Source of the DNA: Ceratodon purpureus | Lineage: Eukaryota; Streptophyta; Bryopsida; Pseudoditrichales; Ditrichaceae | DNA: 64,000 bases | Assembly: GCA_014871385.1 (NCBI GenBank) | Contig: CM026426.1 | Span: 80,023,566-80,087,565, forward strand | Direction: 5' to 3' | Shown: piece by piece, positions 38,112 to 62,163 of the stretch | Layout: every line of letters starts with the position of its first letter | Numbering within the stretch: the stretch's first letter is position 1 | The notes under the pieces: generated by a model | What the model was told of the DNA's origin: nothing | The model's database searches: none | The model's input: only the letters and a program-made list of their open reading frames with translations | Made by a program: the position numbers and the translations under genes

Positions 38112-39578
38112 ATGGTACGACGATGGGGAGGGAGCAGCTTCTCATCCGAAATTGGATATGATATATTAGGTGTGATGATGGAGTAAGTAGATTGAACAGT
38201 GTAGTTGAGTGGGTGGAAGTCGCAACATGCGCGTTCGACGGCGTCACCAGGCCTTGAATAGTTCTAGGAAAGTTGGAGTTGGAGGACTAATGATGCACTA
38301 CACGCCGGTCGGGTGGAGTTGGAGGAGGATGTGGAGGTGGCAGTGTTTAGTGTTGATTTAGCAAGGAAAGGGTTAATGCAGCTGGTCGATCGAGGTGATG
38401 CGACGTAGGGAGGCGGTGGGATTTATGGATCTGGAATAGGCCGTTGCCGCAGTGTCTTGATGGAGGAGCAAGTATGGTGGCGAAAAAAGGACGACTGTGG
38501 CAGATATGGGTGACAGCGTCTATAATAGAAATATTGGGGCGACAGTTATCTCCTGTAGCCTCTATTGACTCTTGAATGATTTGAGATAGTGGTTAAGGTA
38601 CGAGTAGGTGTCTTTTTAGTTAGCGCCATATAGTATAAATTATTGTTTCAGGGCGACCGAGCTATAACTAAGATGAGAATTAATGTTTGTTTGATCTTGT
38701 ACACGATGTCTGTATGTTGGTTTGTTTAATTAAGTTTTGTGTATGGAATGAGCTAAGGTCTAGCGTTTCTGCAAGTGTGGTTATTGGAACAACAGTTGAA
38801 TTTCAGTTGAACTCATCCTCTGGTTCGAATCAATTAGATTGTTCTTGATGCTATGGTTGAGACACCTGAAACGGACCAGTGAAGACAGATTCCCCACTGA
38901 TATTGGAGGTGTATAATTTGAGGGAAATCTGAATAATCCGAATGGCAGGAACATGCTCTACTGCCTTATCTATATATAGAAATTTTTATTTTTGAAAGTT
39001 ATCAAAATCTCAATTATTGGTGGAATTTCAAAGTTTCGTCTTTGGGCAAATTTTGGCAGATTTTGGCAATTTTGGGCTGTTTTGGGCAGTCATTAGAAAC
39101 AAATTCGGCTCATGGGAGGGCCCTATAAGGCGGGTCCGGACAGCACATATTAGTTCACTTTCAGTGGTGGGCAGTGTGCTTTGAGGGACTCGGGAGTGTA
39201 GGCAGCTCCCAATGTGTCAGCATCTGCATGCTCTGAAACAAATGATGGATGGGTTAGTTTTGGGCCGTGGGCTTAGGTGGAGTCACCCGTGGCCAATGCT
39301 GTGAGGAGCCAGGGTGATGGGTCATGATTGAGTTGGAAATAAAGAAATGTGTAAACAAAGAATATAGTGTGCGGAGCTTTAGGGACAGACTGGCGGCATG
39401 TCCAGGTGTATGAGCCACCTCGAAGCGATTTTGGCGGGAGAGCGTGTGGAGGGGCTCTTTGTGTAGTAGCTCGCATGAACTAGTTCAGACCGTTGTGAAC
39501 GTCATTCAGCAAGAGGCGCCAGTTTGCTACATGAATTGTGAAGCGAGGTTGTGTGTGAGTAGTAGTTGATGTAGTAGG
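38112..39578. other. SnRK2 3' region and intergenic DNA
   Basis: Presumed SnRK2 3' UTR followed by unique DNA. At 39043-39085 a TTTTGGCA / TTTTGGGC phrase repeats five times. No ORF with a recognisable motif. Confidence 0.4.
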
Positions 39579-42500: not shown

Positions 42501-43039
42501 TTTTGCAGCACGTAATTGTGCAGCATGGAGTATGGTTTGTGGAGAAATATGGATCCTTGTCGGTCTGGAGCTGCCAAGGGATGGAGAAGTCGCTTCATGC
42601 TGCAAAGGCGGCTAGTCAAGCACATACGCAGCATGGAGGTACGAAGGATCGAACAAGTATCATAGTGCAACAATATCAACATTGGTATACGAATATTCAG
42701 CACAGATATGCTAGGACGATGGCGCAGCAGTCAACGGCAAGTGCATGTTCTGCTACAGAAGCCAGCCACGTTGGGGAGGAAGCTCAACGTTGACGTAGGG
42801 CGTGGACCAGTTCTGGAGCTGCAACAAGGCTCAGTGAGTGGCGCGAAGGACGTGTGCGGCAAGGACGGAGGTGGGTGCCAATTGCTGAAACACATATCCG
42901 GCAAGAGGGCCTAGCCATAGGTGACACTATTGATACAACACCTGCGGCTTCGACGAAAAATCATATTGCATCACAATGGGAGGATGAAGATGGTCCAAGT
43001 AGGACAATTGAGTATGCGGGGAGTACAGAAGAGCGTTAA
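39579..43039 (+). pseudogene. Multi-exon orphan transposon-like gene with coiled coil and zinc-binding HxSxDxK...CxxC module
   Basis: One frame runs from an ATG at 39579 to 41048, broken once by a TGA at 40113-40115 (SA-stop-LELK, one change from CGA). It encodes an N-terminal domain, a long coiled coil (residues about 120-225) and a basic middle. After an intron, coding resumes near 41284 (ECNSGPLIFVLKLDEAEVQK) and continues to HMSADMKTIKCMHGL and SKMNCIYCEQV, with stops at 41440 and 41503. Then come a block at 41839-42366 (RTHMCTLHAQV, GKAGNIVMKPSL, WKALEELQPYLTGL), a GTGAGT...TTTGCAG intron at 42367-42509, HVIVQHGVWFVEKYGSLSVW with CQGMEKSLHAAK, and VRQGRRWVPI near 42860. Similar (H/Y)xSxDxK...CxxC proteins occur as large repeated families in algae and early plants; their function is unsettled and a transposase is suspected. 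This copy is broken. Confidence 0.5.
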
Positions 43040-43380
43040 GAAACAGAGTACGGTGAAGACCATGTTACGAATATTAATTAGCTGGTCTATATTTCCAATG
43101 TGCACATAATTTTCCTTTACTTTAACGTGCATGGTATAAAAATTCAGAAATAGTGGGAATTATAAAAAACAAGGTGTACTTTGCTCGTCCTCCTAGATCC
43201 TGGAAGTCACATGTGACAATTTAAGCATCAGATCAAGCTTATAATTTGCAGCACATTGTAGCTTTGTTGTTTGTTCCCAAAGAACACATATATACCGTAT
43301 TAGCTTTGGCAAATTGTGAACAGACATTAGTTTGCATGGGCGTCGCCGTTGTCCTCATTTCTGCAATAACATGTACATAG
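43040..43380. other. Short intergenic stretch between convergent genes
   Basis: AT-rich 3' flanks of the plus-strand gene to the left and the minus-strand coiled-coil gene to the right. Nothing else seen. Confidence 0.4.
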
Positions 43381-43976: not shown

Positions 43977-43986
43977 AAACTAGAGG
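43977..43986. repeat. Left target-site duplication of the 18-kb element (AAACTAGAGG)
   Basis: The 10-bp sequence AAACTAGAGG occurs here and again at 62154-62163, directly outside the inverted ends of the element. Ten bases is within the 8-11 bp typical of Mutator-like elements. Confidence 0.85.
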
Positions 43987-44100
43987 GGGGAAAGTTCGTA
44001 TGTGAGCAGAGAGCGGAGAGCACAGAATGGAGAGCACAGAAATGACAAGTAGCCAAATTTTCAAAAGCAAAGTAGACCCTATAACCGTGGGAAATTACTA
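43987..44100 (+). repeat. Left terminal inverted repeat of the 18-kb MULE
   Basis: Starts GGGGAAAGTTCGTATGTGAG, passes through an AGAGAGCGGAGAGCACAGAA stretch and ends near CCTATAACCGTGGGAAATTA. It pairs with the right arm at 61936-62153, which is longer because a GAGCGCAGAGCGGTGAGCGG-type segment is expanded there. Confidence 0.75.
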
Positions 44101-44216
44101 AATTAAGGCTTGATTTTGACACTTTTATTAGGAAAAGAGTATATTACCGTGGAAATCAAAGTTATCTCTCGTAAGAATTTATTACGTTTGTTCTCTAAGA
44201 TACAAATTAGGGCTGA

Positions 44217-44237
44217 TGTCATGATGACGTCATGCAT
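44217..44237. promoter_or_regulatory. Palindromic ACGT-core (bZIP-type) site
   Basis: ATGATGACGTCATGCAT contains the perfect palindrome ATGACGTCAT, the classic TGACGTCA bZIP site. It lies about 520 bp upstream of the first cargo gene's ATG, at the start of the upstream segment that is duplicated before the second cargo gene. Binding is inferred from sequence only. Confidence 0.35.
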
Positions 44238-44525
44238 ACATTCCTTTAGATTTGTCATGGGTTTAGGCAAGATACAATGATCAGGCGTTGAGTTTTAGAT
44301 CAAATAAATAATTCTTTCATAGGATTATGTAAATGCACAAGGAAAAAAACAAATTTCACAGATCATAAAGGAGGCAAGGTTTGAAAACTTCCTGGAATAT
44401 TTCAAAAATTGTGTATAGTATCTTAACTGCTGAAACCAAGATATACCTTGTTGGAGTCCTTGTCTTCATCGAAGATTACTCTCTCTTCCTAGGCAACGAA
44501 GCTTCTTCATTTGAGTGATACAAGT
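44220..44525 (+). repeat. Upstream segment shared by the two cargo genes, copy 1
   Basis: Shares with 48300-48600 the ordered phrases ATACATTCCTTTAGATTTG, AAAACTTC.TGGAATATTTCA, TGAAACCAAGAT.TA, GA.T.CTTGTCTT..TCGAAG, and a closing run with CCTAG near the gene start. Spacing is largely kept, so the two cargo genes look like products of one tandem duplication including the promoter. Confidence 0.6.
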
Positions 44526-45139
44526 AAGAGATTCTCATCATGAAACAGCACTTGGTAAGTTGGGTTCCACAGAAGGAGGTCACTCTTGCTTTCTTGAGCT
44601 TGTTTCTAGGTGGCGTATTTGGATAGTGACACAGTCCTTAGCATTCCTCTCTATATGCGAAGGTAGCGTACGAGTCCGGGAGGGTCAATCTGCAAGCTTG
44701 CGTGGAACGTTTTAAGACTACAACAATTTACTGTGTTGCGCGATGCCGAAGGTGTGTAATGCGAGATCGAGGAGGACGAGAGCGGCTGTAGGTTTGGCCC
44801 GAAAGGCACCGGCGAGTTATCAGGAGCTGCGGCCCTGGCTGCTGGAGGTGGAGCGCGCCAGGGAACGAGGCATGGACCTGCCACCGTTTAGGCACATCGG
44901 AAGGCTCCATGTTGGTGAAGGTGAATGGCGTTGGACAGTGCTTTGTACCAATGAGCTTCTCCTTATTATGGAGTTGTCCCTAATCCTGTATCCCTTGCCA
45001 TCCACCATGGTTGTCATAATAGACCGACCGTCCGTTAGTCCGTTAGTCCGTCATGTGACAAGACACACCCCCGTGTCTGTCACATAAGGGAATTGACCGG
45101 TTGACTCACGGTAAGGGTAAAACGAATTTACCTAGCGCT

Positions 45140-45202
45140 GACTTTTGCGCGCGCTCGCGCTCGCGCGCGTCCATTCGGGCGTGAGCATACAGGCAGCTGC
45201 GG

Positions 45203-45233
<31 letters not shown>

Positions 45234-45626
45234 TTTTTTTCGCACTCGCCCATATGTTCGCGCCCATCCGCACTCGCGCGCGCGCGCAAACGGGCGCGAG
45301 CGTGTCAGGAAACGCGCACACAAAAACCAGCTACAATTCTTAAGAAAAATAAAAAATAATTTTTTTTTTTTTTTTTTTTTTCGCACTCGCCCGTATGTTC
45401 GCGCCCGTCCGCACTCGCGCGCGCACGCAGACGGGCGCGAGCGTATCAGCGAACACGCACACAGAAACCAGCCAAAATTTTATTTTTTTTTAAAATTTTT
45501 TTTTATTTTTATTTTTATTTTTTGCACTCGCCCGTATGCTCGCGCCCGTCCGCACTCGGGCGCGCGCAGACGGGCGCGAGCGTATCAGAAAACGCGCACA
45601 GAGAAACGAGCGAAAGTCTTGAAAAG

Positions 45627-45659
<33 letters not shown>

Positions 45660-45750
45660 ACTCGCCTGTATGTTCGCGCCCGTCCGCACTCGGGCGCGCG
45701 CTGACGGGCGCGAGTGTATCAGGAAACGCGCACAGAGAAACCAGCTACAA

Positions 45751-45788
<38 letters not shown>

Positions 45789-45960
45789 TAAAAAAAAAAA
45801 AAAAAAATTCCCACTCGCCTGTATGCTCGCGCCCGTCCGCACTCGCCCGATGGCGTGCGCCGGACTTCGACCAAGTTCTTGATCATTTCATTTTGGTGCT
45901 ACTTCCTCCTTTGCACTCGCCGGTATGCTCGCGCCCGTGTGCACTCGCCTAATAGCTTGC
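45140..45960. repeat. Array of GC-palindrome and homopolymer units
   Basis: Five to six units of about 130-150 bp alternate a GC-rich block (CACTCGCCCGTATGTTCGCG, then CCGTCCGCACTCG, then a GCGCGC core and CGGGCGCGAGCGTATCAG, then AAACGCGCACA) with long A or T runs of up to about 30 bases. The GC block is partly self-complementary (GCGCCCGTCCGC against GACGGGCGCGAG) and could form hairpins. A related partial block lies at 47810-48010. Long ORFs across this region (Phe/Lys runs) are artefacts of the homopolymers. Confidence 0.85.
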
Positions 45961-46289
45961 ACCGGACTTCCATCAAGAAGCTGTTCATTGCAATTTTATG
46001 CACAAATAATTGTTGCCAGACCAGGGAGCTCAATTGCTCAGTACGCGATGTGATGGAGATCGATGAGTGATGAGAACATTTTTGTAATATGATATTAGAA
46101 TTAAAATAGTAGCAAAAGGCATAGATAATTAGATTAGTAGAAGATTTTGGAGTTAATCTAATTATTTTTAAACTATAACATTTTGTGTACATTTCCACTA
46201 TCTTCGCGTTGATTAAATCATAATCTATTGAAACGTCAATTCATTGTTGACTATGTCGTTCATCACACTTGATGGCTTTTTATCCATGA

Positions 46290-47425
46290 CTTTTTTTTAT
46301 ATTTCTCCCATTCTATCCCTTTATTTGTTGATTTTTCTATTCTTCTTCCATTCTATCTTCTCGTTTTCCTTTTCTTCTACATCCAGTGGATGATGTATTT
46401 ATTTATTTTATTAGCCTTCCATTGGTCTCACATTCTATTTTTTATTTTTATATATTAAAATTTCCAATTGTCTTCCATTCTATCAGCTCATCCCTTTAAC
46501 TTCATTATAATTCCATTCTATCTTTTTCCTTTCCTTTTCTTCCATTCTTAGCCTATCATGTATTTATTTATCTATTTATTCTTCCATTGGTTTCACATTC
46601 TATCTTTTATTTTTATGTATTAAAATTTCCAATTGTCTTCCATTCTATCATCTCCTCCCTTTTAACTTCATTATAATTCCATTCTCTCTTCTTGTTTTCC
46701 TTTTCTTCCATTTCTAGTGGATGATGTATTTATTTATTTATTTATTCTTCGATTAGTCGCCCATGTCATCTTTTACTTTTATTTATTTTTCCAATTGTCT
46801 TCTATTCTATCATCTTGTTTTTTTTTAAGTTCATTATTATTCCGTTCTATCTTCTTATTTTCTTTTTCTTCCATTTCTAGTGGATAATGTATTTATTTAT
46901 TTATTTATTTATTCTTCGATTAATTGCCCATTCCATCTTTTATTTTTATATATTTTTTTCATTGTCTTCTATTCTATCATCTTGTTATTTTTAACTTCAT
47001 TATAATTCCATTCTATCTTCTTGTTTTCCTTTTCTTCCATTCTTAGTTTATCATGTATTTTTTAATTTTTTAATTTTTTTATTCTTCCATTAGTCACCCA
47101 TTCCATCTTTTTTTTATTTTATTTTTCCGATTGTCCTCCGTTCTATCATCTAGTCCTTTTTAAGTTCATTATTATTCCATTCTATCTTCTTGTTTTCTTT
47201 TTCTTCCATTCTTAGTCTATCATGTATTTATTTATTTGTTTATTCTTCCATTAGTCACCCATTCCATCTTTTATTTTTATTTATTTTTCTAATTGTCTTG
47301 TATTCTATCATCTTGTTATTTTTAAGTTCATTACTATTCCATCCTATCTTCTTGTTTTCTTTTTCTTCCATTCTTAGTCTATCATGTATTTATTTTATCA
47401 TTCCAAGTCTATGATGTATTTTTTT
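46290..47425. repeat. ~165-bp AT/pyrimidine-rich tandem array, about 7 copies
   Basis: The phrase TTCCATTCTATCTTCTTGTT recurs near 46345, 46511, 46679, 46840, 47005, 47175 and 47337, giving spacings of about 161-170 bp. Each unit also contains a CTATCAT(C)T(TG)GT and a (TTTA)n run. Copies are diverged, so the array is moderately old or evolving quickly. Confidence 0.85.
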
Positions 47426-48299
47426 TCCTGTATTTGTTATGTAAACTTATTATATGTGCCAATTGAATGAAACATGGTAAACAAATTCAAGAATAACATG
47501 AAATATAAGTTATTTACATATTTAATTAATGAATGCAATCATGAACAAAATATAAAACTATACTTAACAAGAATAACTTTAATAGTACGAAAATCAGGAT
47601 TCAAATCATACAAGAACATATCTACATGAGTTTTGGGAGTTCGGTTTCATTTCATTTTTGTGCTAGTTTTTTCTACGCACACCGATACGCACGCACCCAA
47701 CCTCCACCAAGAAGTTGTTCATTTCACTTTGGTGCTTTATTTGTTCATGCACATGCCCAAAGGATGAACTATCACCAAAATGAAATGAACAATTTCTTTG
47801 TGAAAGTCTCGCGCAAGCTCTCTGGCGCGTGCAAACGGGCGCGAGCACTCTGGCGCGTGCAAACGGGCGCGAGCACTCTGGCGCGCGCACCGAGAAAAAA
47901 TAAAAATAAAAAATAAAAAATAAAAAATAAAAAAAATATATATTTTTTTTGCGCGCGCGCCCGAGTGCTCGCGCGTGTGCCTACGGGCGCGTGCAGACGC
48001 GACGACGGGCGCCACCCATGGTAAACAGTAATAAACTGTGAGGACAGTAATTTTGCTCGCGCGGGGGAGCCCGTCCGATAAGCGTCCGTCCGATAACCGT
48101 CCGTCACATCCGTCACGTGACTACACGATAAATTTATGGCCCGTCCGTCTATTATGACAACCCTGCCATCCACCGTTGATGAGAATCCAGTTGTTCAGCT
48201 GCCCGAAGTGATCATATCGGATGGCAAAACCTGCTGGTTTGATATCGACAAGAGTTGGACTGTATATCCCCCGAAGGATTATTACTGTGAAGACTAGTG

Positions 48300-48600
48300 G
48301 GGTGTTCGAATACATTCCTTTAGATTTGGTCCCTTATTAGATCTAGATACGAGTATTCCAGCATGATGTTTTTAGATAATATAGATAATTCTAGGAATAA
48401 GAGAACTTGAAACCACCAAAAAGAAATGGTCTTAAAACTTCGTGGAATATTTCAGAGTTCGTGTACAATAATGGAGTACCTGAAACCAAGATGTATACCA
48501 AGTCAGAGTACTTGTCTTGGTCGAAGAATTCTTCGTCTTTAGATAAGACCATTCCTAGCTTAAGTGTGAAGCAACGATCTATATAAACCTTAGCAGACGA
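48300..48600 (+). repeat. Upstream segment shared by the two cargo genes, copy 2
   Basis: The partner of 44220-44525, lying directly before the second cargo gene. It begins with ATACATTCCTTTAGATTTGG and contains CGTGGAATATTTCAGAGTTC, CTGAAACCAAGATGTATACC and CTTGTCTTGGTCGAAGAATT, each matched in the first copy with a few differences. It lacks the bZIP palindrome. Confidence 0.6.
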
Positions 48601-48621
48601 CCTTGAAGTTGTATTAGCTCA

Positions 48622-49185
48622 ATGAATTCTGTAGAATTTAAGCGTGTACTTGCTAGGGATTTGTTTGAAGGTATGGGCGATTCATTTGAGGTCGTTGCCT
48701 GTGAAACGGTTTTACAGGATTTGCTTAAGCGGATGGCCAATGGGCCTAACCCCTGGGATCATATAGGTAGGAGTGCAACGCAGGGTTGGACTCCTATGAC
48801 TGTTATCACGTTTGAAGATGTGGAGAACGCTCGTGCTGTGTCGAAGAGTTGGAAGCGTGAGATTGACAACAGTCCTGAATACGCATGCCTTTGGCTAGCG
48901 AGGTGGGATTACTTTTCGTACGAGGGTCGCCATTGGAGTCCAAAAGACGAATATGAAGTTAATCGGTTTAACATCAACTGGAGTGTATTTAGGAGTTCTT
49001 AGAAACTTGCAAATCCAATTTACAACGAGAGGTTAGAGACAGCATCCCTTGGAGAACTTAGTTGCGTTGAGTTAGATCAGTTGACGTCATTGCTATCTGC
49101 CAATGGGAATGAGGTCTTGGATGTGCCGGAAGGAGAGAAAATTTCTCCAAGAGATGGTATCTGGATCTCTCTTAAGAATAGGTAA
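48622..49185 (+). pseudogene. Cargo gene 2 of the MULE, F-box-like, one premature stop
   Basis: From ATG 48622 the frame encodes MNSVEFKRVLARDLFEGMGD and then an F-box-like helix pattern: ACETVLQDLLKRMANGPNPW, ENARAVSKSWKREIDNSPEY, ACLWLARWDYFSYEGRHWSP. F-box domains recruit SCF ubiquitin ligases through SKP1; the VSKSWKR...ACLW spacing matches the C-terminal F-box helices, but the N-terminal part is weak, so this is a family-level guess. A TAG at 49000-49002 interrupts the frame; it continues in phase (KLANPIYNERLETASLGELS, then LTSLLSANGNEVLD) to a stop at 49185. Total length would be about 187 codons. It is transcribed toward the convergent minus-strand methyltransferase gene. Confidence 0.45.
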
Positions 49186-49189
49186 CATG

Positions 49190-49459
49190 GCTACGGTTTA
49201 GGGTGAGAGTTTGAATGATTAAGAAAGTAATTACAGCAATAAATATATTTTCGAGCATTTCAGTTTTAACATTTCATTGTTCCTGGTACATGTTGACCAT
49301 TACAAATGTGACATTTCATTCTTTACATACACAGATACGAACAGGAAATGAGAATCATAACAAGTTTAGGTTGTTTGCAGTAGAGAAGACGAAGTAATAT
49401 GCAATAAAACTCCAATTAAATCAAATTAAAACAACAATAGACCGAAGCCTCCTTCAAAC
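49190..49459. other. Convergent 3' flank
   Basis: AT-rich DNA between cargo gene 2 (plus) and the end of the ParB/methyltransferase gene (minus). Probable shared 3' UTR and polyadenylation region (AATAAA at 49402). Confidence 0.4.
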
Positions 49460-52400
49460 TCACAACATGCTACAGTCGCTACTTTCACTCTCAGAACCCG
49501 ATGACTCCGAATCTCCTTCTACAGCCTCGTCATCGACGAATATAAGGGCCCTGAGATCAAAAGTAGTTGGCCAACTAGGAACATATGTAAGGGCTCCAAA
49601 TTGAAACGCCTGTGCTAAGCCCTCTGCGTAGTCCGGAAGTATGAAAGGCTGAATCGGGCTGGAATGAAGACACCACGATGGAGTGGACACTGCTCTTGGC
49701 CCACGTGGAGGTGTTGCTGAAACTACTCTACAATAGAGAACCGATTGTGGTTAGATCAAGTATGTAGAGCTGCAAAGAGAAGAAATGCTTGGATATTTGA
49801 TTGTAGAATAGAAGACTTACACCACTTAACAGGTCTTGCTCTCTTTGGAGGGGCTTCGTCTGCTGCTGCCGGCCTAGGATGTTTAGGAGGGCCCATGGCG
49901 GATGGTCTAGCCATGTACGGTTTGAGAAGGGCGTTGAATATGGCTTCGTCCTCCTCAAAAGCTAGAATGTGACGACCAATAGCCTGGGAAGCCTTGATGG
50001 AGGCCCCTGAAACTTGGAGAGAAACAAAGAAATGAGAAACTGTGGAAAAATTGAGAGGAATAATTAAGCAGAGATATGTATGAATAGTTACCTGTCCCAG
50101 CATTCCAATCGAGGACTTTGTCGCCGGGCTTCGACAGCTCCTCAATTATGCCTTGCATCATCTCAGGGGCTTTCTCCCGTGGGCCTCTCCACGGCACCTC
50201 CCCATTCATGAGCTGCGATTCCACATCGGTGAAGTTGAAAATGGCATCACTCTCGGTAATGTTGAGGACCCCATGTATCAACTGGGATTTCTTTGTCTGG
50301 AAGGAGAAAGTACTGCCACTACGAATGTAGACGCGAATCCAGAACCGCATAGTCTGCAGTCAAGCAAAACAAGTGAGTAAAATTAAGCGGAAGGGTTATC
50401 AGTAAGTAAAGAGAAGGGTATGTTTAGGGAAATTACCAAGTTCTCGGGGTTCGTAGGAGAAGTCAGGCCGAGTACATTGACACCCCACCAGTCCTTGAAA
50501 ATCACGAAGTCACCACCCTCAGCTTCTTCCTCGATATCCTTAGCCAGGTTCTGATCAATGTTGTAGATGAGGAAGAGGGCACTATCTTTCTGCAGATATG
50601 AATCTGCAAAACGGAAGATGTCGTACACATAATCCTCGGGGCGAGAGTTCCAAGGCGGAATACTCGTGGGGGGAACGGAAACGGAAGGGACGGGAAGATT
50701 CTCAGGGATGTCGGCAATGATCAAGTCGATTCCCAGGTGGTCCTCTTGTTTGCACCGGTCCCCAACTCTGTTTTCGCGGCCTGCTCCAAACTTGAAGAAA
50801 CAAGAAAGCAGAGTTAGAAACTACAAAGCGAGTAGAGGTGGCTGAATCCAGAAAATGTCTGAATATCGGAACATACCTTGCGAATGAAGTCTTGAGTCTT
50901 CATCCAATCCGGGTCGCCGCCACCTTTTCTCTCCTATCTCTTATTTCGCCGCAACATGGAATCCACAGATGAGTTGAAGACGGAAACATGTGTGGAAATC
51001 GAAGCTCCAGCGGAAGAAGTTGTTTGAGGATATAGTTTGGACTTCGTGTGATCGCAGAAGCACCAATGGATGAAGGCGCATTCGCTGTGGTCAACGTTGG
51101 CATTGGGACGTCTATAGCTGGAGAAGCGTTGGGTGTCTCCTTCCCTGGTGAGGAAGACTCAGCTCCAGTCTCTTGTGAGGTCTGAGACTTCGAACCCAGA
51201 GTTCGCAGTCGCCGACCTCTCCCTCTCTTCGGTCGAGGTGCAGATGATTGACTCTGATGTGCTTCGTCGTCTTCAGAGCCGTCGTTGGAGTCTTCGACCA
51301 CCGGCGCACGGATATCAAGTAATGACTTCACATCGGTCTCAAAAATAAATTGTTAAACCACGGAGGCAATCCAGATACCAACATCCTGCTTCCAAGTAGG
51401 GGGCTTTGTACCTCTTCAACTGCTGAGGAGAGTACATACACTGGTCCGAGCCTGTATCGACCCATGAAGTAAAGTACTTCGGGAGTTGTTGGACAGTGAT
51501 GGCGCCTTTTAGAAGAAGCTCCCTCTTGAAGTACCTGGTAAGAGCCAATTTTGAAAGACTTAGTATGTGGCAGAGTGGAACAACACGATTCGAAATGCAC
51601 ATATGTTTGAGTAAAGAGTCATACCGGTAGGTGACTCGCTTGACAACATCGGCCGTTCCAGGGAATTTTGTGAAAATCGTCTTCTTGTCAAAAGTCTTCT
51701 TAGCCTTGGATCCAAGGAATGCCGGGAATGCTCTGTCCGAAAGGAGAATACGCCAACTCTTAACGTAATCGCCTGGTCGCTGAACATTAGGGGATGCATT
51801 CCAATCGATGTCCAGCTCCTCAGCCTTACAGATTCCTTCGAAGTCTTGGATGACCGCTTCTTCCAACTACAGAAGACAGTCAACTGTATTAGACAAAGAT
51901 AATAAAAGTGGTAAGAAGACAACATGAATTAGTAATTTGGAATATGGATAGCATACCCCAGCCCAGAATGAAGCCTTGTTTAGCCAGCGGTCGAGGTCGG
52001 CTTCCTTGAACTCTGGTGGTGGGAATCTATAAGACTGCCTTGAAGTTGGAGAGGAGTTCCACCACCTCAACCAACGAGCTTTGTACTTGGGTTCCACTGC
52101 CGCCGGCACAATCTTCTGCAGCTTGTCCAATGTCATCTCAGGTTTGTTGACATCGCTGAAGTGGCGGTTAATCTGCAATAAAAACTATACGGTTAGAATT
52201 TGAAAAAAGGGAAAGAATGAAATGAGATCTAAGTATAAGTGCTGAAGGTCGTACCTCAGCAAGGAAGTCATCACCATTTTTGGGATTCGCAATAGCCAAG
52301 TATTTGGTGAAGTCCTTTTTTTTTACAACGTTGACGAAGTTGTTGGCTGCAGTTGTCATCGCATCCCAAACTCTAGATCCAGATTGATCCTCTATTGGCG

Positions 52401-53422
52401 TGTTCTCCTTGTAGGCTCTTGCGGCCTGATCCAAGGCGACTGCAATCTCCCTCTGTACATGGAAACATAATGTACTAAAATCAGTGTATCATAATCTTGG
52501 AATGTACTAGATAGAGAAAGGAAAATGACGAATATACTTGGGGCTTCATTGAAGAAATTCTTACACGGTATAGAAAAGCAATAAAAACCTTGGTTGTCAA
52601 GGTAAACCAGCGGTCCTTTGCGCGATTATTCTGCATACAAGTCTCAAACTCTTCCTGACTAAGAAGATCTTTGAACTCTTCTAACTTCATCACACCAAAA
52701 GAGCGGATGCGGAATAACTTGGCTGGAAGATTACTCTTCACATGGTCGTTCTCAGTTGACCTGCGAGCACAAATTACATTTCAGAAAACACATGATAAAA
52801 GAGGAGTGCTTGAAAGCAAAATTCTAGACAGAGGAGTATAATGATTCTGACCAGTTGATATCGTGCATGGCGTGGAGAAGATTGCCCACTTGGCCGCGTG
52901 GGTCCAATATGATGCAATGCACCGAGATGTGCCATGCGGGGTCGTCGGCATAATGCTTGTTGATGTGTTGTAACCAAGCTGAAAGGCGATGATTACCTTC
53001 CCATACAAAAAACATTTTGCCACTGAATTGATTGAGGTCATCGTCTCCTTGGAGGTCGGCTTCGAAGGCTTCGTTAGCCTTGCGCCAGCATGGGCTCCAC
53101 TATACCTTCACTTTCTCCGTGACATCCATTGACATCTCTTCAGTGTTGAACATGGAAATATACATCACGCGGTCCCCATCTCTGTAACCCTTCACGAACT
53201 CCCTCTCCAAATGTTGCACGCCCATTTCACCAACCGGTCTCACTTTTGCCATTGCTATCATTCTGCACAATGGGACAAGCAAGCAAGACTTCCTCAAGGG
53301 CTGAATACGAACGACATTGATGACGTTGATCGAGTCAACTTTATGCTGTGTTCGATGAAGCAATTCCCCTTGAACTGCGTCTTTCAAGTCCAGAGGCTTT
53401 GATGATGATGGCAACACGTCCT
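49460..53422 (-). CDS. ParB-like domain fused to a beta-class DNA amino-methyltransferase (cargo gene core, ~11 exons)
   Basis: Exons with GT-AG borders: 53422-52852, 52760-52589, 52452-52255, 52172-51957, 51866-51625, about 51534-51345, about 51344-50890, 50790-50437, 50353-50092, 50006-49821 and 49716-49460. The first has a ParB-like fold signature: KVRPVGEMGVQHLEREFVKG, later FFVWEGNHRLSAW (GNHR box, about 52986-52997), then LLHAMHDINWSTENDHVK across the splice. A helical middle follows, then a basic/acidic linker. The methyltransferase part has DLIIADIPEN (motif IV position, 50701-50712), FRFADSYLQKDSALFLIYN, VPWRGPREKAPEMM (motif X), GDKVLDWNAGTG (motif I) and GRHILAFEEDEAIFNALLKP (motif II), the beta-group order. 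Such enzymes methylate adenine-N6 or cytosine-N4. Motif IV reads DIPE in place of DPPY-like. One in-frame TAG lies at 53102-53100, and the frame changes near 50945. Confidence 0.7.
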
Positions 53423-53584
53423 CTGTTTGAGTAAATTGAGATCCCCGCCATAAGCCATAGAAATGAATTCAAACTTTACAGTGCAGATTCCAAAAAATAG
53501 AATTTACCAGTCACTTAGAGATTTTCTCATAAATGAAAGGGTAAAACAACAAGACAACTGGAATTTAATCCAAGACACTAAGCA

Positions 53585-56173
53585 TCAAGGCTGTGTCACT
53601 CTACGAGGATCCCTTCCATAGTAATGTCTAGCCTCTCTACTATTCCAATGATGGCGCCTCCTCCAAAATCGCCTGGTCTGACGGCAAGCGCTGGGCAGTA
53701 TTGCAGGAAGGGCAAACACTACATGGGCTGGCCTCCTCAACACCAAAGGTGAAGCTGGGGGATTTGGCGAAGACGGCGGTGTACCAAGACGTGGCGAGGT
53801 GGGCATGTACACTAGAGAGGTGGGCATGTACACAAGAGAGGTGGGCTCATAACAGGCGACGTAGACATGTACTGGGATGACTGGACCTCGAAAGGTCCAG
53901 TATCTACACCTAGAGGAATGGCTAAATCACAGGTACAAAGACGCTCATCCTCTAGGTCTGACAGGTCAGAAAGGTTGATCACAGAGATTGGAGAATTGAC
54001 AGACATGTCCGGAGCATCAGAGCCTACCTGGAAGTAGAAGCCATATAAGTAAGTTAGAATTTTCAAATCATTTAAAAAAAATTTCTAGGGCTTAGCTAAT
54101 ATTATTCAGAATAATATGTAAATGTGGACCAAAAAGGGAATCATATTAAAAAATATACCTCAGTTTCCTCAGGCCCCTTGCTTTCACTCTCAGTTTCCAT
54201 TATTTGCTGAGGAGTATCCTGAAATTGAAAGAAAAGAAGTGGGCAATTAATTAGATCAAATATAGGTCCTTTATAATTTATGATACCATTCTCTTAGTAA
54301 AGAAAAGTTCATACATAAAGAGAATACATTCGAAGAAGGGGAAGTATAGACAGAAAGTAACCAAAAAAATAAAATAAAATGAGACGCTGAAGAAAACAAA
54401 TACAAGTGCCTCCTTGGCTGGGCTTGTGAGCTTGCGCTTGATGCTGTCTGCTCCGAAAGCAGACAGCGAGCCCATTAAGCTCAACGATCAACCAAAATTA
54501 AAAAAATAAAAACTTTCCTCATTGGAGGCATTAGGCCTCCTCGGCTGGGCTTGTGAGCTCGGGCTTGATGCTGTCTGCTCTGAAAGCAGACAACGAGCCC
54601 ATTAAGCTCAAGGTCCAAACAACAAATTAAAAAAAAAAAAGCCTTGCCTCATTGGAGGCATTAAGCCTCCTCGGCTGGGCTTGTGAGCTCGGGCTTGATG
54701 TTGTCTCCTCCGAAAGCAGACAGCGAGCCCATTAAGCTCAAGGTCCAAACAAAAAAAATAGAAAAAACCTTAACGCTCATTCAGGCTCGAAGCACTAAGG
54801 GTGGTCGCATTGAGCCTGGCCGCATTGAGCCTGGCCCTGCCTTAGAGGAGGCTAGAGCTCTTCAGGTCATGCTGTCAATGCCTCCCATTTCGCGACCCAA
54901 TACAAACTGTTGAGATTTCCCGACCACCCACAGATCCCCAGTACCCACAACCCAAATTCCAAAATGTACACAAAGGATTCTCAATACACATAAGCCGAAT
55001 CCACCCACAACTTTATCTAACTAAACCCAATAACATTAACTATCGAATTCAAGTACATTGTACGGAGTCGTAACCCCCATCACTGTCATGCCACATGATT
55101 GCGCTAATCATTTCCGTACGTAGGTTTCAGCACTAGAATCAGAAAACCCAGCAACATATCATTCCGACACGGATCTAGCAGGAGGTGTACCTGCTCTTCC
55201 TCCTCGTCTTCGGGGACGGGGTCCTCCTCGTCTTCGTCCTCCTCGTCTTCGTCCTCCTCTTCTCCGCTTTCCTCGCTCCCGGCTTCAGCTCCGAGCCCGA
55301 GCTCAGGTTGGGGCTGGGGTTGGAGAAGCTCCACCTCCTCTTCTCCCAGCACAGGCTCCGCACCTTTCACAGCCTTCTCCTCGCCTCGGCCTCCCTCGCC
55401 TCCCATCCGCGCCGCCATCGCCACCCCACCTTCACCACTCTTGAGGATCTCCTCTCTCGCTCTTCTCGCAACTCCTCTCAAACGCTCGCTTTTGCTACCC
55501 TCTCCAACTAGTGAGAATGGAGTCGAAACTCCCACCTCCCTTATCCAGTTGTTACTCTTTGTAAAATTAAAAAAGAATAAGAATTATTAGTTGGTGACGT
55601 TCCACAGTTTTAAAGTTTCTCCTTGAGTAAATCACACCGTAGTTTTGCATCATATAATTGTAATTTAAATTCAAATCGAATATGAACATAAGAAATTCAT
55701 ACTAAACTTTGTCTGAGTATACTTACTTCAATGGAATTAAAATCATACTCAGATTGAGAATCTGGGCCCCTTTGCAAAGAGTCATTGAATATGATAGTTG
55801 GCTGTGGTGACTCTACTCTTTGACTACAATTAAAAACTAACTCTTCCGTCATGGCCTCACGTCCAACTCCACTTAAGAGTATCTCCTGTTTGTGCTCTTG
55901 ATTCTCGATGACCGTTTTCTCTAAAAACTCTTCCTTCTCCTCTACTATAGAGTCCAGTATGAGTTTACGAATGCTAGAAAACTTGAAAGCTACAGGCACA
56001 CCTCCTCCTCTCCTTTTCACGGGTGCACTCAAATGGTCACCTTTAAAAACTACCTTCTTACGTGATGCTCTCCTCTTTCTAGCTCTCCTATCCGTAAAAT
56101 CTGTACTACCTGGTTTTCTTCTAGGTTTAGGAGTGACATAAGTGGAGGAAGACGGCCCTCCACCCTACTTCAT
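53585..56173 (-). CDS. N-terminal exons of the ParB/methyltransferase cargo gene (basic NLS, acidic tracts)
   Basis: Minus-strand exons precede the ParB-like block with the same polarity. The first (56173-55737) starts at an ATG 60-70 bp below a TATTTAA box and encodes PKPRRKPGSTDFTDRRARKR, a nuclear-localisation-like basic region, then VEEKEEFLEKTVIENQEHKQ, ending DFNSIE at GTAAGT. Its third codon is TAG. The second (about 55559-55191) begins SNNWIREVGVSTPFSLVGEG and ends in a Glu/Asp tract at GAGCAG|GTACAC. Then come three duplicated cassettes (54.4-54.75 kb), a short exon 54218-54157 (DTPQQIMETESESKGPEETE) and one from 54028 (DMSVNSPISVINLSDLSDLE). The last, Pro/Ser-rich part to 53585 changes frame. 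Whether this is one gene with 49460-53422 or a separate upstream gene is uncertain; orientation and the lack of a promoter between them favour one gene. Confidence 0.45.
54408..54752 (-). repeat. Triplicated ~110-130 bp exon-like cassette
   Basis: Copies at about 54408-54484, 54517-54624 and 54647-54752. On the minus strand each has a T-rich tract, then TTGAGCTTAATGGGCTCG, a GTCTGCTTTCGGAGCAGAC hairpin, and CAAGC(T/C)CACAAGCCCAGCC. One frame reads LSLMGSLSAFGADSIKRKLT. Each copy looks like an acceptor plus short exon, so this is probably a tandem exon duplication. Confidence 0.8.
55185..55300. repeat. CTCCTCGTCTTC-type low-complexity tract
   Basis: A 9-12 bp repeat on the plus strand (TCCTCGTCTTCG iterated) encodes the poly-acidic EEDEDEEDEDEED stretch of the minus-strand gene. 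The open plus-strand frame over it (55185-55511) is a shadow. Confidence 0.8.
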
Positions 56174-56800
56174 GTGTCTAACCACAGGAAGAACTCTATC
56201 ACGAAAAGACTCTGTGCAGAACTTCCTCCCAGCTTAAATACCTATAACGTACAACTATTTTGATAAACCCTAAGTTATTATATATTTTAAATTGCTTAAA
56301 CTTTCACTTTCTTCTTTATGTCAAGAGTACCAATAACAATTCTATAATTAAAGTAATGTTTAAAATATCAACCTTTAATTATAAAGAAAAATCTAAGCAT
56401 ACTAAAAATTAAAAGATCTGAATCAAGCACTTCAATGAATGCTCCTTTTTTATTCATTGTTATAAATATACAATACAAATGACGGCTCATTGTAATCTTA
56501 TAATACATAATAACAAATAGGATATGGTCCATGATTCAAATTATTGCTATAGAGTTATATTAATCTTAACTGATATACTTCGACCTGCAAAAAGTTGCAT
56601 TCTAATTAGTTAGCGCAGTCTCTCTTAAATCATACATTCATTGCGTAACAGAATGAATCATTACCTAGTCCTCCACATGGACATTCAATCTTGAATAAAA
56701 TGATCAACAGCTATACATCATTCCTCTCACTTTGCTCTCGCAATACTGCTGCGCTACTATACTCACTCTTCTCCACTTCTCGATTGAGTTGCCTGCGAAC
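56174..56800. promoter_or_regulatory. Shared divergent intergenic region between methyltransferase gene and transposase
   Basis: About 630 bp of AT-rich DNA separates the minus-strand ATG (56173) from the first in-frame plus-strand ATG (56801). A TATTTAA box on the minus strand at 56240-56234 suits the methyltransferase gene. A plus-strand TATA candidate is less clear (ATATACAATACAAA at about 56464 is far from the start). Head-to-head arrangement suggests co-expression. Confidence 0.5.
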
Positions 56801-59800
56801 ATGGGGATGGTCTGTCTGTACGCCCAAGGCATGGGCATCCCTCTTAGGTTTCGCGTAGATGACGATGGTCTAGTTACAGTTTCCTCTCTTCCCCTGAGTC
56901 TCAGAATTCATTTCCGTGAGGATTCCATCAGTATAGAGGAGGAAATCTTTGATGACGTTACTGCCGAGGTTACCCACACCCTCGGGCAACCTTCACTAGG
57001 AGATGAGAATAACATGTTGCAGTGGAGACTTCTCCCTGGATCCTATAGAGTCTATGGTCTTACTGATTCTCTGATGGCTGCATCCACTGAGATCCTCACC
57101 CCCCGTCGCTCTTCTACAGCACAATTCAGACTCCCTTACCTCGTGATGTCAAGGTCAAAGTCAAGCTTGGTACTGAAACTTCAGACGTAGAGAAACCTCC
57201 TCCCACGACAGTCATTTCTCTCTCCTCTGATGACGAAGTCAGTCCCGTCAAGTTGGTGCCTAAGGTCCACGCAGATGCTCCTCCTTCCAGTGTCTCTCCT
57301 CCATTGTCCCAAGTCACAGTTAGCATTGTTCCTCTCCTTCAACAGCTTGCAAAGGCGCGTGGGTCAAAAAACATTCTAAAGAAGATAGACTATTCCACTA
57401 TTAGACACGAGAGAGTAGAGTACTTGCCTGCGAAGTTTGATGGTCCGGTTCTTTTTGACTTGCCCCCAGCTGCTGCGGGTTCCTCTAAGCTCGCCGCCAA
57501 GTCAATGCAGGGAATGGAAAAACGATACGACGGACAGTTGTGGACCAAGACCATCACAACAAACATCAAGAACGACTTCGGACTATCTTTTTGAAGTTCC
57601 ACCTGCGTCGGATGGCTGCCCTGCACCAACGAGGAGTGTGACTTCCTGAAGCATGTCCCCAAGATCTTCGAGGTTAACGAGACTGAGTTCGAAGGGTGTA
57701 CTCTTCAAGCGTTTCTCATGGATCAGCTTCCTCCATCTGACTCCACGCTAGTGTGCAAGGTATGTAAAGAACCTCCATCATGTGTAGCTACATGCGAGGC
57801 TAAGATTTATTACGTAGTGGGCAAAGCGAATCAGACTAGAGCTTGTATTCACATAGGAACACATGATCATCCAGTGAAAGTTGAAGACTACAGAGACTCT
57901 AAAGCAGAGATTAGTAGCTTAATAGAAGAGCAGGTAGAGATGAACAAGAAAGCAACAAAGAGCGCCGTCCTCTTGGAGGCGAGCAAACTTGTCATCGGGA
58001 GCTACCTGCTACAGCCCGAGGATGCACCACCGAGGAAGCTGACAATAGAGGAGCTAGTTCCTGTTCTGGATCGATGCAAAGACATGGCGTCACCAAACAT
58101 CCGCAACAAAGTCGCAACCTTCAAAAAAAACAGAAGGTACGGAATCATGGACGGTATCACCAAGCTCCAGGGTAACAGTCTCTGGGCGTATGTCCAGGAG
58201 AATAGGTTTCCTGGTCAGGGAGCTATGCGTGACAAAGTCTTTGTCTTCAAGATGTCGGAGGTCGGGCCGGGAAGTGGTGTCGACTTGGTCAGCCGAATGC
58301 AAGCTGGCCGAGACTTGGAGAACGCATGGATCATGTTCGACCATGTCAAACGCGTCAAAGATTGGTCGACGATGGCGTGCCATGTGTACGATGCCACCTA
58401 CTGCCGCGTGATGACAATCGCCACTTGCGACATGCAGTTTGAGGACACGGAGGCCCAGCTCGTCTTCTGGAAAAACCTGAACCTGGTCATGGAGATCAAT
58501 GGCGTTGCAGCGCCAAACTTCAAGGGGTTCATGGCGGATAACGCACAGGCGAATTGGAATGCAGTGCGAATCCTTTACGGCAATGGCAACAAAGAAAACT
58601 CAATGGAGGACCAGGAGAGGTTGTGCTTGTTCCACTGGACACAGAACATGGTCTCGTATACGCAGAAGCACTTCCCCGAAGAACTCTGGGAACAGCACAA
58701 GAAGATGTGCACTCAGTACAAGAATGCGACCAGCATGGCAGAGGCGGAAACTCTGTACCACGCGTTGCAAGCCTGGTGGGCATCCACCGGGGTCGTTGGC
58801 GAAAGCGGACTCATCAAACTCGATCAGTGGCTGTCATTCTGGCACCACCGCTTCCGGTAGTGGGGGGGATTCATGACGGAGGTATGATGTCTGCACTCTG
58901 TTTTGATGTTTTTCATACTAATTTCCTAGCCCTAACCTACAAAACTCTACTCAGTGAATCTAACGGCACCTACTGTCAAAATTGCAGAAATTCACGAAAG
59001 AAGAACTCACAGAGATGCCGACCTGTAACCTCGCCGAAACCGTTCACAACAAGTGGCTTCAAGCTTCAGGAAACAACGGGAACGACCTCTACGTTGCTAC
59101 AGTGGACGATTTCGTTTGGGCTTTTCTACAGGTTGTTAACTACTACCAGTTCCTCAAAGGTGACGTTGGCCGAACAGGACCGTCCAAGATGGAACTCAGG
59201 CTCCAGATGGTGGAACGCAACATGAAGAAATGGGGAAATCCTACACTGCTCGAAAACCTTATGCTCGATATGCCAGGCGCGGATGAGTTCTGCACCCGTC
59301 AGCCTATCATGCCTGGAGCGGAAGTGTTCGGTTCACGGAAGCGAAAAGCCGGCGTCCTTATTGGAGCTGACGAGGAGTCTCATCGCCCGGACAAGACAAT
59401 CTTCTCACGCCCAAGAGGCCCAAGACGTGCCATCAAGGCTCGCCCTATGCAGATGCCCGTCATTGTGGAAGACGACTCTGAACACGACACCCAGGTGAAA
59501 GGTACCCAATCTCCTGCCCAGCAAGTTGATTCCCCTTTACCTTCACCTGTGAACAAGGGCGGCATTCGCCATGTCAACGCGGTTGAAGAAACGAAGGTCG
59601 ACGTGAAGGAGTGGCACATTTCGAGACTTCACAAACTTTCTGCAAAGTGCTGCTGGGCCCAAAGAGTTGAAACGAAGAAGAAGTGCACTGAGAGAATCGT
59701 CAGGGGGCCCCATTGCACAGCTGCACCGACCTACACTGGGCTTTGGACTAACTATCGGAGGAACATAGTTGAGAAGACAGAGTTCTTCTTCTGCTCCGAC

Positions 59801-60481
59801 GATATTGAGCGCTGCGTGAAAGGCTCTAAGCGCAAATGGGTAGCACACTACTTGAAGGACGAGGAATTGCCCCCCATTCCAGAGGTCTGGCCAGTGAAAC
59901 TAGGTACTAACCTAAAGCTCACCGAGATTCTTGCCCTCGAAGCTGCAGGGTTTCAACTTCCGCCGAAGAAACCGGTCTCCCCAAGACGCCTCTTCTCCTC
60001 TGCCCTGCCCCCTGCAAATCTCAGCTCGGTGCCAGTCCCTGCAGACGCTGACCGCTACCCAGGCAAGAGAGACGGCAAGATGGTGAAGCGCACTGCCACT
60101 CGTCCCAATCCGGCGCAGCGACTCTCCATGGGCTCCTCCGAGTCACTCAAAGAGCGCCTCCGTTGCGTCACCATGATACATGAGCCGGGCCACGGTTGCA
60201 TCGTTGGGCTGGACTCCGGCGTCGCTCCACACATCACACGGTACCAGATTACCATCAGTTCTTACCCTGGTTGCACTTGTCCTGCATTCCAGAAGACTAT
60301 GACTACGTTCCGAGGCAGGACTCAGTTCACGTATTGTAAGCACCTTTACTACATACTCTTGAAGGTCTGCAACCGTGATCCCGAAGCCGAGCTTTTCATC
60401 CATGCGCCTACCTTCAGCTTTAACAAGGTCAAGCTACTCCTAGAGAGTGGAATCTTGCGTCACCCCTTGGCGAAGAAGTAG
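56801..60481 (+). pseudogene. MULE transposase with SWIM zinc finger, three disabling changes
   Basis: Domains in order: an N-terminal region (56801-57120, MGIPLRFRVDDDGLVTVSSL); a Cys-containing DNA-binding-like region (CVGWLPCTNEECDFLKHVPK, later CKVCKEPPSCVATCEAKIYY and ACIHIGTHDHP); the DDE core with AWIMFDHVKRVKDWS (first Asp), NFKGFMADNAQANWNAVRIL (second Asp), CLFHWTQNM (C2H-type insertion) and AEAETLYHALQAWW (candidate Glu); an intron at about 58892-58985; NLAETVHNKWLQASG; and a C-terminal SWIM finger, YPGCTCPAF...YCKHLYYIL (CxC...CxH) near 60265-60350, ending at 60481. A frame change occurs at about 57090-57120 near a C6 run, a TGA at 57592 (SF-stop-SST, from CGA) and a TAG at 58858 (FR-stop-WGG, from CAG). 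Otherwise the copy is complete, so it is recently inactive. The first ATG in frame is 56801. Confidence 0.85.
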
Positions 60482-60731
60482 GTAGCACTCCTTCTTTAGA
60501 ACTGCCATTTCCACATTGGCCATTGGTCATGTAGTGAATTATTTTAGTAATATCCCATGTACTAAGTCAGCAATACAGAAGCTGTATTGACTTTTTCATT
60601 ATAAAGGCTTTGTCGTTCATATTGATTGCATTCTATTTCAAAACATTCTATCTTGAACAAGTGCACTATATAACTCGTATCCCCTGACATGTACCCTTTA
60701 TTACAGCAAACATATACTTGTTATTAGATTG
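60482..60731. other. Convergent 3' flank of transposase
   Basis: AT-rich sequence between the transposase stop and the stop of the convergent small gene. Nothing else seen. Confidence 0.4.
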
Positions 60732-61190
60732 TCCTAATCTTCGAACCTAACACGTTTAGGGTTGCCCACTACATTATCAGCAGGACTGCCAGCCTCTGAC
60801 TGTACTGCTGACTGTACAAACTACATTTGCGTTCACCTTCATTCCCACACTTGGCAAGTGTCCTTGGTATGAACGTTTTAGCAATGGCCCATGTCCCCGC
60901 CTCCGATTCACTGATTCCCTGGAATAGGTTCCCCTTGGGATCTTTCCAACCTTGGAGTATGCATGAGGTTGCAAAGGCACATCTGCGTCCTCCTCCACCA
61001 CTCTGATATCATCCGAATTTTTTGAACGTGGACGGTCAGCTCTTACATCCGGTTGCACGTCAACATCCGTTGTCAAAGGACGCCTTTGGCTGTTGGCCAT
61101 CACCTCTTCTTCGTCCTCCACCTCAACATATGGTTGAAATGGGCAAACATCGTCAGCAAGTGATACAACAATATCTTTGACGTCTTCCAT
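60732..61190 (-). CDS. Small acidic protein with C-terminal RVRF motif (MULE accessory gene, unknown function)
   Basis: From ATG 61190 the frame reads MEDVKDIVVSLADDVCPFQP, YVEVEDEEEVMANSQRRPLT and RVVEEDADVPLQPHAYSKVG, and stays open to a stop at 60777. In the +1 frame the end reads SEAGSPADNVVGNPKRVRFE-D-stop at about 60735, so either a short intron or a frame change links the two. RVRF fits the RVxF docking motif for protein phosphatase 1, but a four-residue match is weak evidence. The gene is convergent with the transposase and inside the element. I recognise no family; MULE accessory genes such as mudrB-like proteins are a loose functional analogy only. Confidence 0.4.
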
Positions 61191-61430
61191 AACTGCTGTC
61201 TTGCACTACGGAAAAGAGCTTCAGAAAACACCAAGAGAAAAGAGGAAGAGACATTCCATAACCCTATCTTAAATATCGTTGAAGAAGATGCTTGGCGCCC
61301 TTGAAAATTGGCTTTTCATTCATTTGAAAGTTGTCATCGTCCTAAACTGAATGGAAAAGGATGAGGATTGAGCAGAAGTCATTTAGCATTAAAAATTTAA
61401 AAAAAAAAAAAAAAAAAATGAAATTGTAAA

Positions 61431-61472
<42 letters not shown>

Positions 61473-61935
61473 ATTTATAAAAAATGAAATTAATAAATTA
61501 AAAGTAAATAAAATCAAAAATAAATATGAAGGTTGAAAATAATATGAAGACGACTGAGAAAATGAAAGAGAAAATAAAATGAAAGAGAATTAAGGGAAAG
61601 GACTCTTTTGACCCCTTTAACAAGATAGATTGAATAATGGAAGTTAATATTAAAAAAAAGAAAAATTAAAAAAAAAAGTTGAAAGGCATGTAGACTATGG
61701 AGGATGAATTATAGCAATGTTAAGAAAATGTTACAAAGTTAAATGTTACTTGATCCCTCTTAAGAGGTTCAATACCAATACATTTTAAGCAGTAATTTGC
61801 ATATAAATGTGAGGAGGTAAGGGGAATTATTGTATGCCTGAACTAGTTAGAAGGAGCTGGAGCATAGTAACTGGTGCACGTTAAAAATTTAATCACCAAG
61901 AAAAGAGAAAATGAACTACAAATTCAATGAAAATA
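61191..61935. other. AT-rich subterminal region of the MULE
   Basis: Contains two long A-tracts (61399-61418 and 61434-61470) and low-complexity A-rich sequence. Probably the subterminal region and the upstream region of the small acidic gene. No gene visible. Confidence 0.5.
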
Positions 61936-62153
61936 CTGTAATTCGTCCACGGTTATAGGATCAATTAAATTACTAAAATAAGATTATTTCTAAAAATATA
62001 CTGAGAATATTCGAATCTTATAATTTTATAATTTATTTTTAGTAAAAAAAGTGCTATTTTTAGGTTCTGTCTCCCATTCTGTGCTCTCCGCTCTCCAAAT
62101 CTCCGCTCACCGCTCTGCGCTCTGCGCTCTCCGCTCACATACAAGCTACGTCC
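61936..62153 (-). repeat. Right terminal inverted repeat of the 18-kb MULE
   Basis: Read inward on the minus strand: GGACGTAGCTTGTATGTGAG, several GCGGAGAGCGCAGAGC-type units, TTGGAGAGCGGAGAGCACAG, AATGGGAGAC and, after an AT-rich spacer, CCTATAACCGTGGACGAATT. The outer 21 bp align without gaps to the left end (15 of 21 identical), and the inner landmarks match in order. Confidence 0.75.
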
Positions 62154-62163
62154 AAACTAGAGG
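62154..62163. repeat. Right target-site duplication of the 18-kb element (AAACTAGAGG)
   Basis: Perfect match to 43977-43986, immediately outside the right inverted repeat. Confidence 0.85.

Follow-up and report, generated by a model that had tools for sequence, protein, structure and literature searches.

The closest described counterpart of the gene considered here belongs to Sola1-1_Ec32, a giant DNA transposon (21.5 kb) of the brown alga Ectocarpus. On the strand opposite its transposase, this element carries a protein of 1104 amino acids with a ParB-like domain and a predicted N4C/N6A DNA methyltransferase domain, and the idea has been put forward that this accessory protein binds and modifies its own element's sequence; Iyer 2011 and Petroll 2025 are cited for ‘similar proteins’ in green and red algal transposons (PMC12477816, in the accessible part of the text). 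Sola1-1_Ec32 can be compared with the present case by description, not at motif IV of the methyltransferase, and the accessible text mentions no altered active site; the green and red algal proteins, likened by description in the same text, are alike in being transposon-borne. Here we analyse a 64,000-nucleotide stretch of Ceratodon purpureus (contig CM026426.1, positions 80,023,566 to 80,087,565; the whole stretch is called the window), in which what appears to be one gene for the same two domains lies not in a Sola1 transposon but in a Mutator-like element (MULE). An initial annotation of this DNA had considered such a gene ‘not a described system’; this was wrong, because the algal paper describes both the same pair of domains and the same idea of binding and modifying the element's own sequence. 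What the present locus adds to an already known class of accessory proteins is the Mutator-like setting and a fixed, non-canonical motif IV (DIPE).

METTL14, the partner of METTL3, is inactive. AMT6/7 (MTA9) is likewise without activity and pairs as a heterodimer with AMT1 (MTA1), which is active. The two cases show that a methyltransferase fold may be kept in an inactive partner; these proteins share the fold with the present one but are of the MT-A70 family, and neither a ParB domain nor carriage by a transposon is described in the accessible part of PMC12695648. An accessory protein is also known amongst MULEs. The VANC proteins of the Arabidopsis VANDAL elements bind to short motifs that form arrays in non-coding DNA, introns included, and differ in acting by sequence-specific hypomethylation; the accessible part of PMC5735166 ascribes to them neither a ParB nor a methyltransferase domain. 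In a MULE survey, the word ‘methyltransferase’ is absent from the main text as far as this is accessible, and a table lists SET genes for one oomycete clade (PMC6446971). A literature search on ParB-methyltransferase transposon proteins found only PMC12477816, as did one combining ParB, MuDR, methyltransferase and transposon; most subscription journals lay outside the search, and such proteins may have been mentioned before in land plants or MULEs.

Results

The gene lies on the minus strand between 56173 and 49460 (exons in Table 1). Its model was obtained by translating this strand and splicing it by GT-AG signals and open frames, and the translation, the splice reading and fold searches give a ParB/sulfiredoxin-fold domain upstream and a beta-class amino-methyltransferase domain downstream. 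Support for splicing is strongest for exons E5 to E10 and E13 to E16. Joined across their GT-AG introns, E5 to E10 (53468 to 51379) stay in phase, and their 533 codons contain a single stop. Shuffled base by base 2000 times, the sequence had a mean of 28 stops and a minimum of 14, and the remaining five frames of the concatenation hold 15 to 33. E13 to E16 make an in-phase run of 356 codons, of which the last is the stop. Amongst relatives, which were compared as protein sequences, E6 also directly follows E5 in P0012 and P0046 (alignment A1), and the reading runs from E14 into E15 in P0055. E1 to E4 were predicted by splice signals and open frames only. The layout, with both domains on the strand opposite the transposase, agrees with that of the algal element (PMC12477816, accessible part); that the two halves form one protein we infer from strand, spacing and this published precedent, because the frame is damaged between E10 and E13 (E11/E12). 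A pair of separate genes, conceivable given the break at E11/E12, is the less favoured alternative: E5-E10 and E13-E16 are each in phase and on the same strand, and the algal precedent is one protein.

The exons are not chance open reading frames, since relatives are found for them in a protein collection: 45 amongst 62 candidates for E5 (E 6e-108 to 1.4e-6) and 20 amongst 101 for the methyltransferase exons. VWEGNHRLSAW and KVRPVGEMGVQHLEREFVKG both lie within E5. The GNH of the first is invariant in the 33 sequences of alignment A1 and its R nearly so. In the AlphaFold model of E5, with a mean predicted local distance difference test (pLDDT) score of 79.8, a strand (153-157) and a helix (159-172) flank the GNHR box, which fits the G-x-[HR]-R phosphate-binding box, after a strand and at the start of a helix, that we take to be the motif of the ParB/sulfiredoxin superfamily. 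The model resembles ParB and sulfiredoxin structures in the PDB and shows E5 with a ParB/sulfiredoxin fold; a sequence-profile search of the PDB with the ParB part gave two unrelated matches only (E 0.12 and 0.29). Where sulfiredoxin presumably has its catalytic cysteine (GCHR), the E5 box has N. As the GNHR box is kept, nucleotide binding by the ParB-like domain is plausible.

In the downstream domain VLDWNAGTG, beginning in E14, is followed by the acidic AFEED in E15. The domain scores 28.4 bits against Pfam PF01555 (gathering threshold 26.7; E 2e-6) and matches PHROG 6952 (1.2e-9). Read from the exons, its motifs run in the order IV, X, I, II, and METTL3/METTL14 and MTA1 structures are amongst the fold matches of its model. 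It thus has a beta-class methyltransferase fold.

The catalytic motif IV of the beta class is [DNS]PP[YFW], and its aromatic residue normally stacks on the flipped target base. Here DIPE stands in place of DPPY. The exon with this motif, E13, is present in 17 of the 20 methyltransferase relatives, and all 17 have DIPE; the longer DIPENLPVP is found in 16 (P0066 has G for N) and is kept in P0068, at 33-34% identity. In alignment A4, which holds 14 of the 17, D36, I37, P38, E39, L41, P42, V43 and P44 are invariant. The register of DIPE against the DPPY of CcrM and DpnA depends on HMMER pieces that score just -0.7 to -0.9 bits alone, VDLIFADPPYNL of CcrM aligning with IDLIIADIPENL in a piece of only -0.7 bits. 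With DIPE so conserved, the stacking aromatic residue appears to have been replaced by a fixed glutamate, which makes ordinary N4/N6 self-methylation doubtful, and because the canonical motif IV is missing the domain is assigned by its fold, not as an active N6/N4 methylase. That a non-canonical motif should be so strongly conserved suggests that its function has changed, and not that the site has simply decayed. Amongst the relatives, motif I takes the forms AGTG, AGIG, ASTG, AATG and CGVG.

Much of the initial annotation is borne out by these results. It had read here a spliced gene inside a DNA transposon, with the E5 and motif I sequences quoted above and an acidic end of beta-2, all of which are found on the minus strand, and its ParB-like domain is recovered in the AlphaFold model, though sequence profiles recognise no ParB family. 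Of the N4/N6 methyltransferase that it proposed, the fold and the motif order stand, whereas plain N4/N6 methylation is doubtful.

The surrounding element has inverted ends, an internal transposase gene and an identical 10-bp target-site duplication on either side (Table 1). The length of this duplication falls within the 8 to 11 bp listed for MULE clades (PMC6446971, accessible part). When pairs of positions were drawn at random 4000 times, 17 pairs had a 10-mer in common within 60 bp; pairs less than 500 bp apart were passed over and scored as having none. Both ends carry GTATGTGAGC and match at 15 positions over the outermost 21 bp, and an exact inverted match of 22 bp (44009-44030 with 62074-62095) lies just inside further inverted ends. 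No Sola-type 4-bp duplication was seen by eye at the outer ends. The transposase, read by eye, has a zinc-cluster-like N-terminus, DATYC, MADNAQ, CLFH (CxxH), NLAETVHN and a C-terminal SWIM-like CTC..CKH, motifs that we take to be Mutator-like in look and that include two D motifs and an E-like one. Its profile matches are weak (NCBIfam IS256, E 0.1; SWIM, E 0.12), and Pfam gives no MULE domain match for it.

This copy of the transposon is broken. The ParB-methyltransferase gene contains three in-frame TAGs (Table 1) and frame breaks within E4, around E10/E11 and around E11/E12, and the transposase frame is interrupted by a TGA (57592-57594) and a TAG (58858-58860). Recoding of TAG was set aside because the frame breaks and the transposase TGA point to decay. 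Relatives that span the position of the E5 TAG read through it (alignment A1); since predicted proteins cannot hold stops, this shows only that open copies of E5 exist.

Candidate target sites for the protein are found at two kinds of place. Both ends of the element carry arrays built on a 7-bp unit, and a tandem repeat of 130 bp lies in the probable intron between E2 and E3. Each 130-bp unit holds a long imperfect hairpin whose core, CTGTCTGCT-ccgaa-AGCAGACAG, is perfect in just the first copy, and the DNA folding z values of the three copies are -3.52, -2.90 and -0.97. The intron array may parallel the VANC targets, a likeness that is suggestive only. As candidate targets, the end heptamers and the hairpin repeats look new.

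Discussion

We favour, with a probability of a little under one half (about 0.45), the reading that the product of this gene is a DNA-binding accessory protein that serves a giant Mutator-like transposon. The ParB/sulfiredoxin-fold domain would load the protein onto element DNA. The methyltransferase-fold domain has been kept, with DIPE fixed in place of DPPY and with a looser motif I; it would serve chiefly to bind DNA or S-adenosylmethionine, and possibly to dimerise, instead of working as an ordinary methylase. Through the repeats at the ends or in the introns, the protein may cover or mark copies of its own element, and this could counter host silencing or help transposition.

A number of observations weigh against this reading. 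Foldseek gives the E5 model no match at or below E 0.001, the Z of its structure matches stays below 8, and no ParB family is recognised in Pfam (33 relatives included), NCBIfam or PHROGs at the limits used. Linkage of the two domains in relatives has one indication, P0005 and P0063, both on 5460-bp contigs; the other 16 of the 17 ParB relatives on contigs of at least 4.2 kb (11 of the 16 on at least 9.7 kb) have none in common with the methyltransferase list, and the methyltransferase exon may there have been lost, have diverged or be differently predicted. The loss of the aromatic residue from motif IV does not prove loss of activity. Finally, the third hairpin unit (z -0.97) folds hardly better than shuffles, and the intron hairpins and heptamer arrays, as candidate binding sites, are known from one element copy only.

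The best-surviving alternative, which we consider unlikely, is an active self-modifying enzyme, in which the ParB domain would direct an N4-cytosine/N6-adenine methyltransferase onto copies of the element. This is what the Ectocarpus authors propose for the algal proteins (PMC12477816, accessible part), and it is also the view of the initial annotation. It has in its favour the methyltransferase fold and motif order, together with a motif IV that keeps its D and one P and a motif I that keeps its final G. It fits poorly with the replacement of the aromatic residue in every relative that has the exon, and with the variability of motif I. A bolder form of our preferred accessory-protein reading seems more doubtful still: a ParB-methyltransferase in the style of phages and bacteria would have turned into a non-methylating clamp that loads at the intron palindromes and end heptamers, its DIPE domain reading or shielding the DNA, and the element would be its own anti-silencing centre.

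There is little to recommend a role confined to transposition or copy maintenance, with a putative ParB-like clamp, dependent on cytidine triphosphate, pairing the ends or aiding the transposase and no link to silencing: the ParB fold with its phosphate-binding-type GNHR box and the heptamer arrays at both ends would suit it, but no ParA-like partner was noticed, and PF01555 is the only above-cut-off Pfam match amongst the element proteins tested. Just as improbable is a captured gene of no use to the element, a passenger in the manner of Pack-MULEs, since, frequent as captured gene fragments are in MULEs (PMC13317346, accessible part) and broken as this copy is, the exons and key residues are kept in many relatives and the same domain pair is encoded opposite the transposase of an element from another superfamily (PMC12477816, accessible part).

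With this locus, a class of transposon accessory proteins that was described only recently comes to include one from a Mutator-like element. If Sola1, this MULE and the red and green algal elements share the two-domain gene, then it would be a module that can be carried by different elements and has a task on which selection can act. The fixed motif IV raises a sharp question, namely whether the ParB-methyltransferase proteins of transposons are methylating enzymes in the first place. Should they not be, the published idea of ‘self-modification’ would have to be revised, and an anti-silencing or clamp role would come to the fore.

Other searches and features of the window

The full spliced query (1042 amino acids) found no relative at E 0.001 amongst the 7994 best word-sharing candidates; relatives were found with exon-sized queries. 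Viral contigs yielded no relative of the transposase, the ParB exon or alignments A1 and A4, which excludes nothing on a viral origin, and genome contigs searched with A4 yielded none, which excludes nothing on a prokaryotic origin. A tblastn search against phages gave one match only, at E 7, and leaves a phage origin possible. In a viral structure library, the best 50 of 114 matches are mostly ParB-like or unnamed, with one annotated DNA methylase, and none of the 114 lies at E 0.001 or below.

Table 1. Positions in the window of the transposon, its genes and its repeats
Feature	Position	Strand	Remarks
Whole Mutator-like DNA transposon	43987-62153		18,167 bp; inverted ends, target-site duplication, internal transposase gene
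Left target-site duplication	43977-43986		AAACTAGAGG, 10 bp; identical 10-mer at 62154-62163
Left terminal inverted repeat	43987-44041	+	GAGCR array 44004-44041, 14-bp period (7-bp sub-unit), 2.7 copies; Tandem Repeats Finder
Small gene, first part	44743-45006	+	No known family; split by nested element; reading resumes about 48175-48300; by eye
Nested second transposon	45007-48163		About 3.2 kb; splits small plus-strand gene; no gene recognised by eye
Second small gene	48622-49185	+	Divided by in-frame stop; open frames 48607-48999 and 49003-49182
Exon E16	49460-49725	-	C-terminus and stop
Exon E15	49821-50006	-	Remainder of motif I; acidic end of beta-2 (AFEED)
Exon E14	50092-50353	-	Motif X, then beginning of motif I (VLDWNAGTG); PF01555, PHROG 6952, CcrM alignment
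Exon E13	50437-50790	-	Methyltransferase motif IV region, GIDLIIADIPENLPVP; model and fold search
Exons E11/E12	50877-51337	-	Low-complexity linker; frame breaks; TAG 50934-50936
Exon E10	51379-51534	-	Connecting region (E7 to E10) without known domain; GT-AG, in phase
Exon E9	51625-51866	-	As E10
Exon E8	51957-52172	-	As E10
Exon E7	52255-52452	-	As E10
Exon E6	52589-52760	-	In phase with E5
Exon E5	52852-53422 (about)	-	ParB/sulfiredoxin-like domain, GNHR box; TAG 53100-53102; 45 relatives, AlphaFold model, PDB matches
Exon E4	53590-54027	-	Prediction; internal frame break, end uncertain
Exon E3	54159-54218	-	Prediction; GT-AG, phase 0
Tandem repeat, 130 bp	54408-54755		2.7 copies; predicted intron E2/E3; candidate cis target
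Exon E2	55191-55556	-	Prediction; acidic low-complexity; GT-AG and open frame
Exon E1	55727-56173	-	Prediction, outside homology matches; basic N-terminus like a nuclear localisation signal; TAG 56165-56167; open frame and GT donor
Presumed shared divergent promoter region	56174-56800		Suggested by gene orientation
MULE-like transposase	56801-60481	+	Divergent from ParB-methyltransferase gene; first part in different frame from rest
Right terminal inverted repeat	62083-62153	-	Array 62083-62136, 7-bp period, 7.6 copies
Right target-site duplication	62154-62163		AAACTAGAGG; identical to left 10-mer

The first part of the split small plus-strand gene has no Pfam match, nor has the second small gene. 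Upstream of these two genes lies a 74% direct repeat (44378-44475 and 48428-48527), as if their promoter regions had been duplicated. A minus-strand open frame of 142 amino acids (60777-61205), close to where the element ends on the right, has no Pfam match. The nested transposon has inverted ends GTTGTCATAATAGAC and an 11-bp duplication, TGCCATCCACC, at 44996-45006 and 48164-48174, and contains GC-rich and TTCC-rich satellite arrays with periods of 141 and 166 bp.

In the 64-kb window, Rfam gives no match at gathering thresholds, and no recognisable host gene was found amongst the scanned open reading frames, a selection of the longer ones. A minus-strand segment (22955-23329) matches DDE_Tnp_4 (E 1.7e-6, above cut-off) and Plant_tran (E 0.0013, below cut-off). 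On the plus strand, 39570-43100 contains coiled-coil frames followed by a cysteine-rich segment (KCMHG...CIYC), perhaps a gene of another transposon; a match to NET2A at the coiled-coil frame 39570-40112 is sub-threshold and, like the DDE_Tnp_4/Plant_tran-like segment, gives no more than a hint as to the host. Near-identical repeat copies (98-99%, about 200-290 bp) lie in an AT-rich region at 2839-3618.

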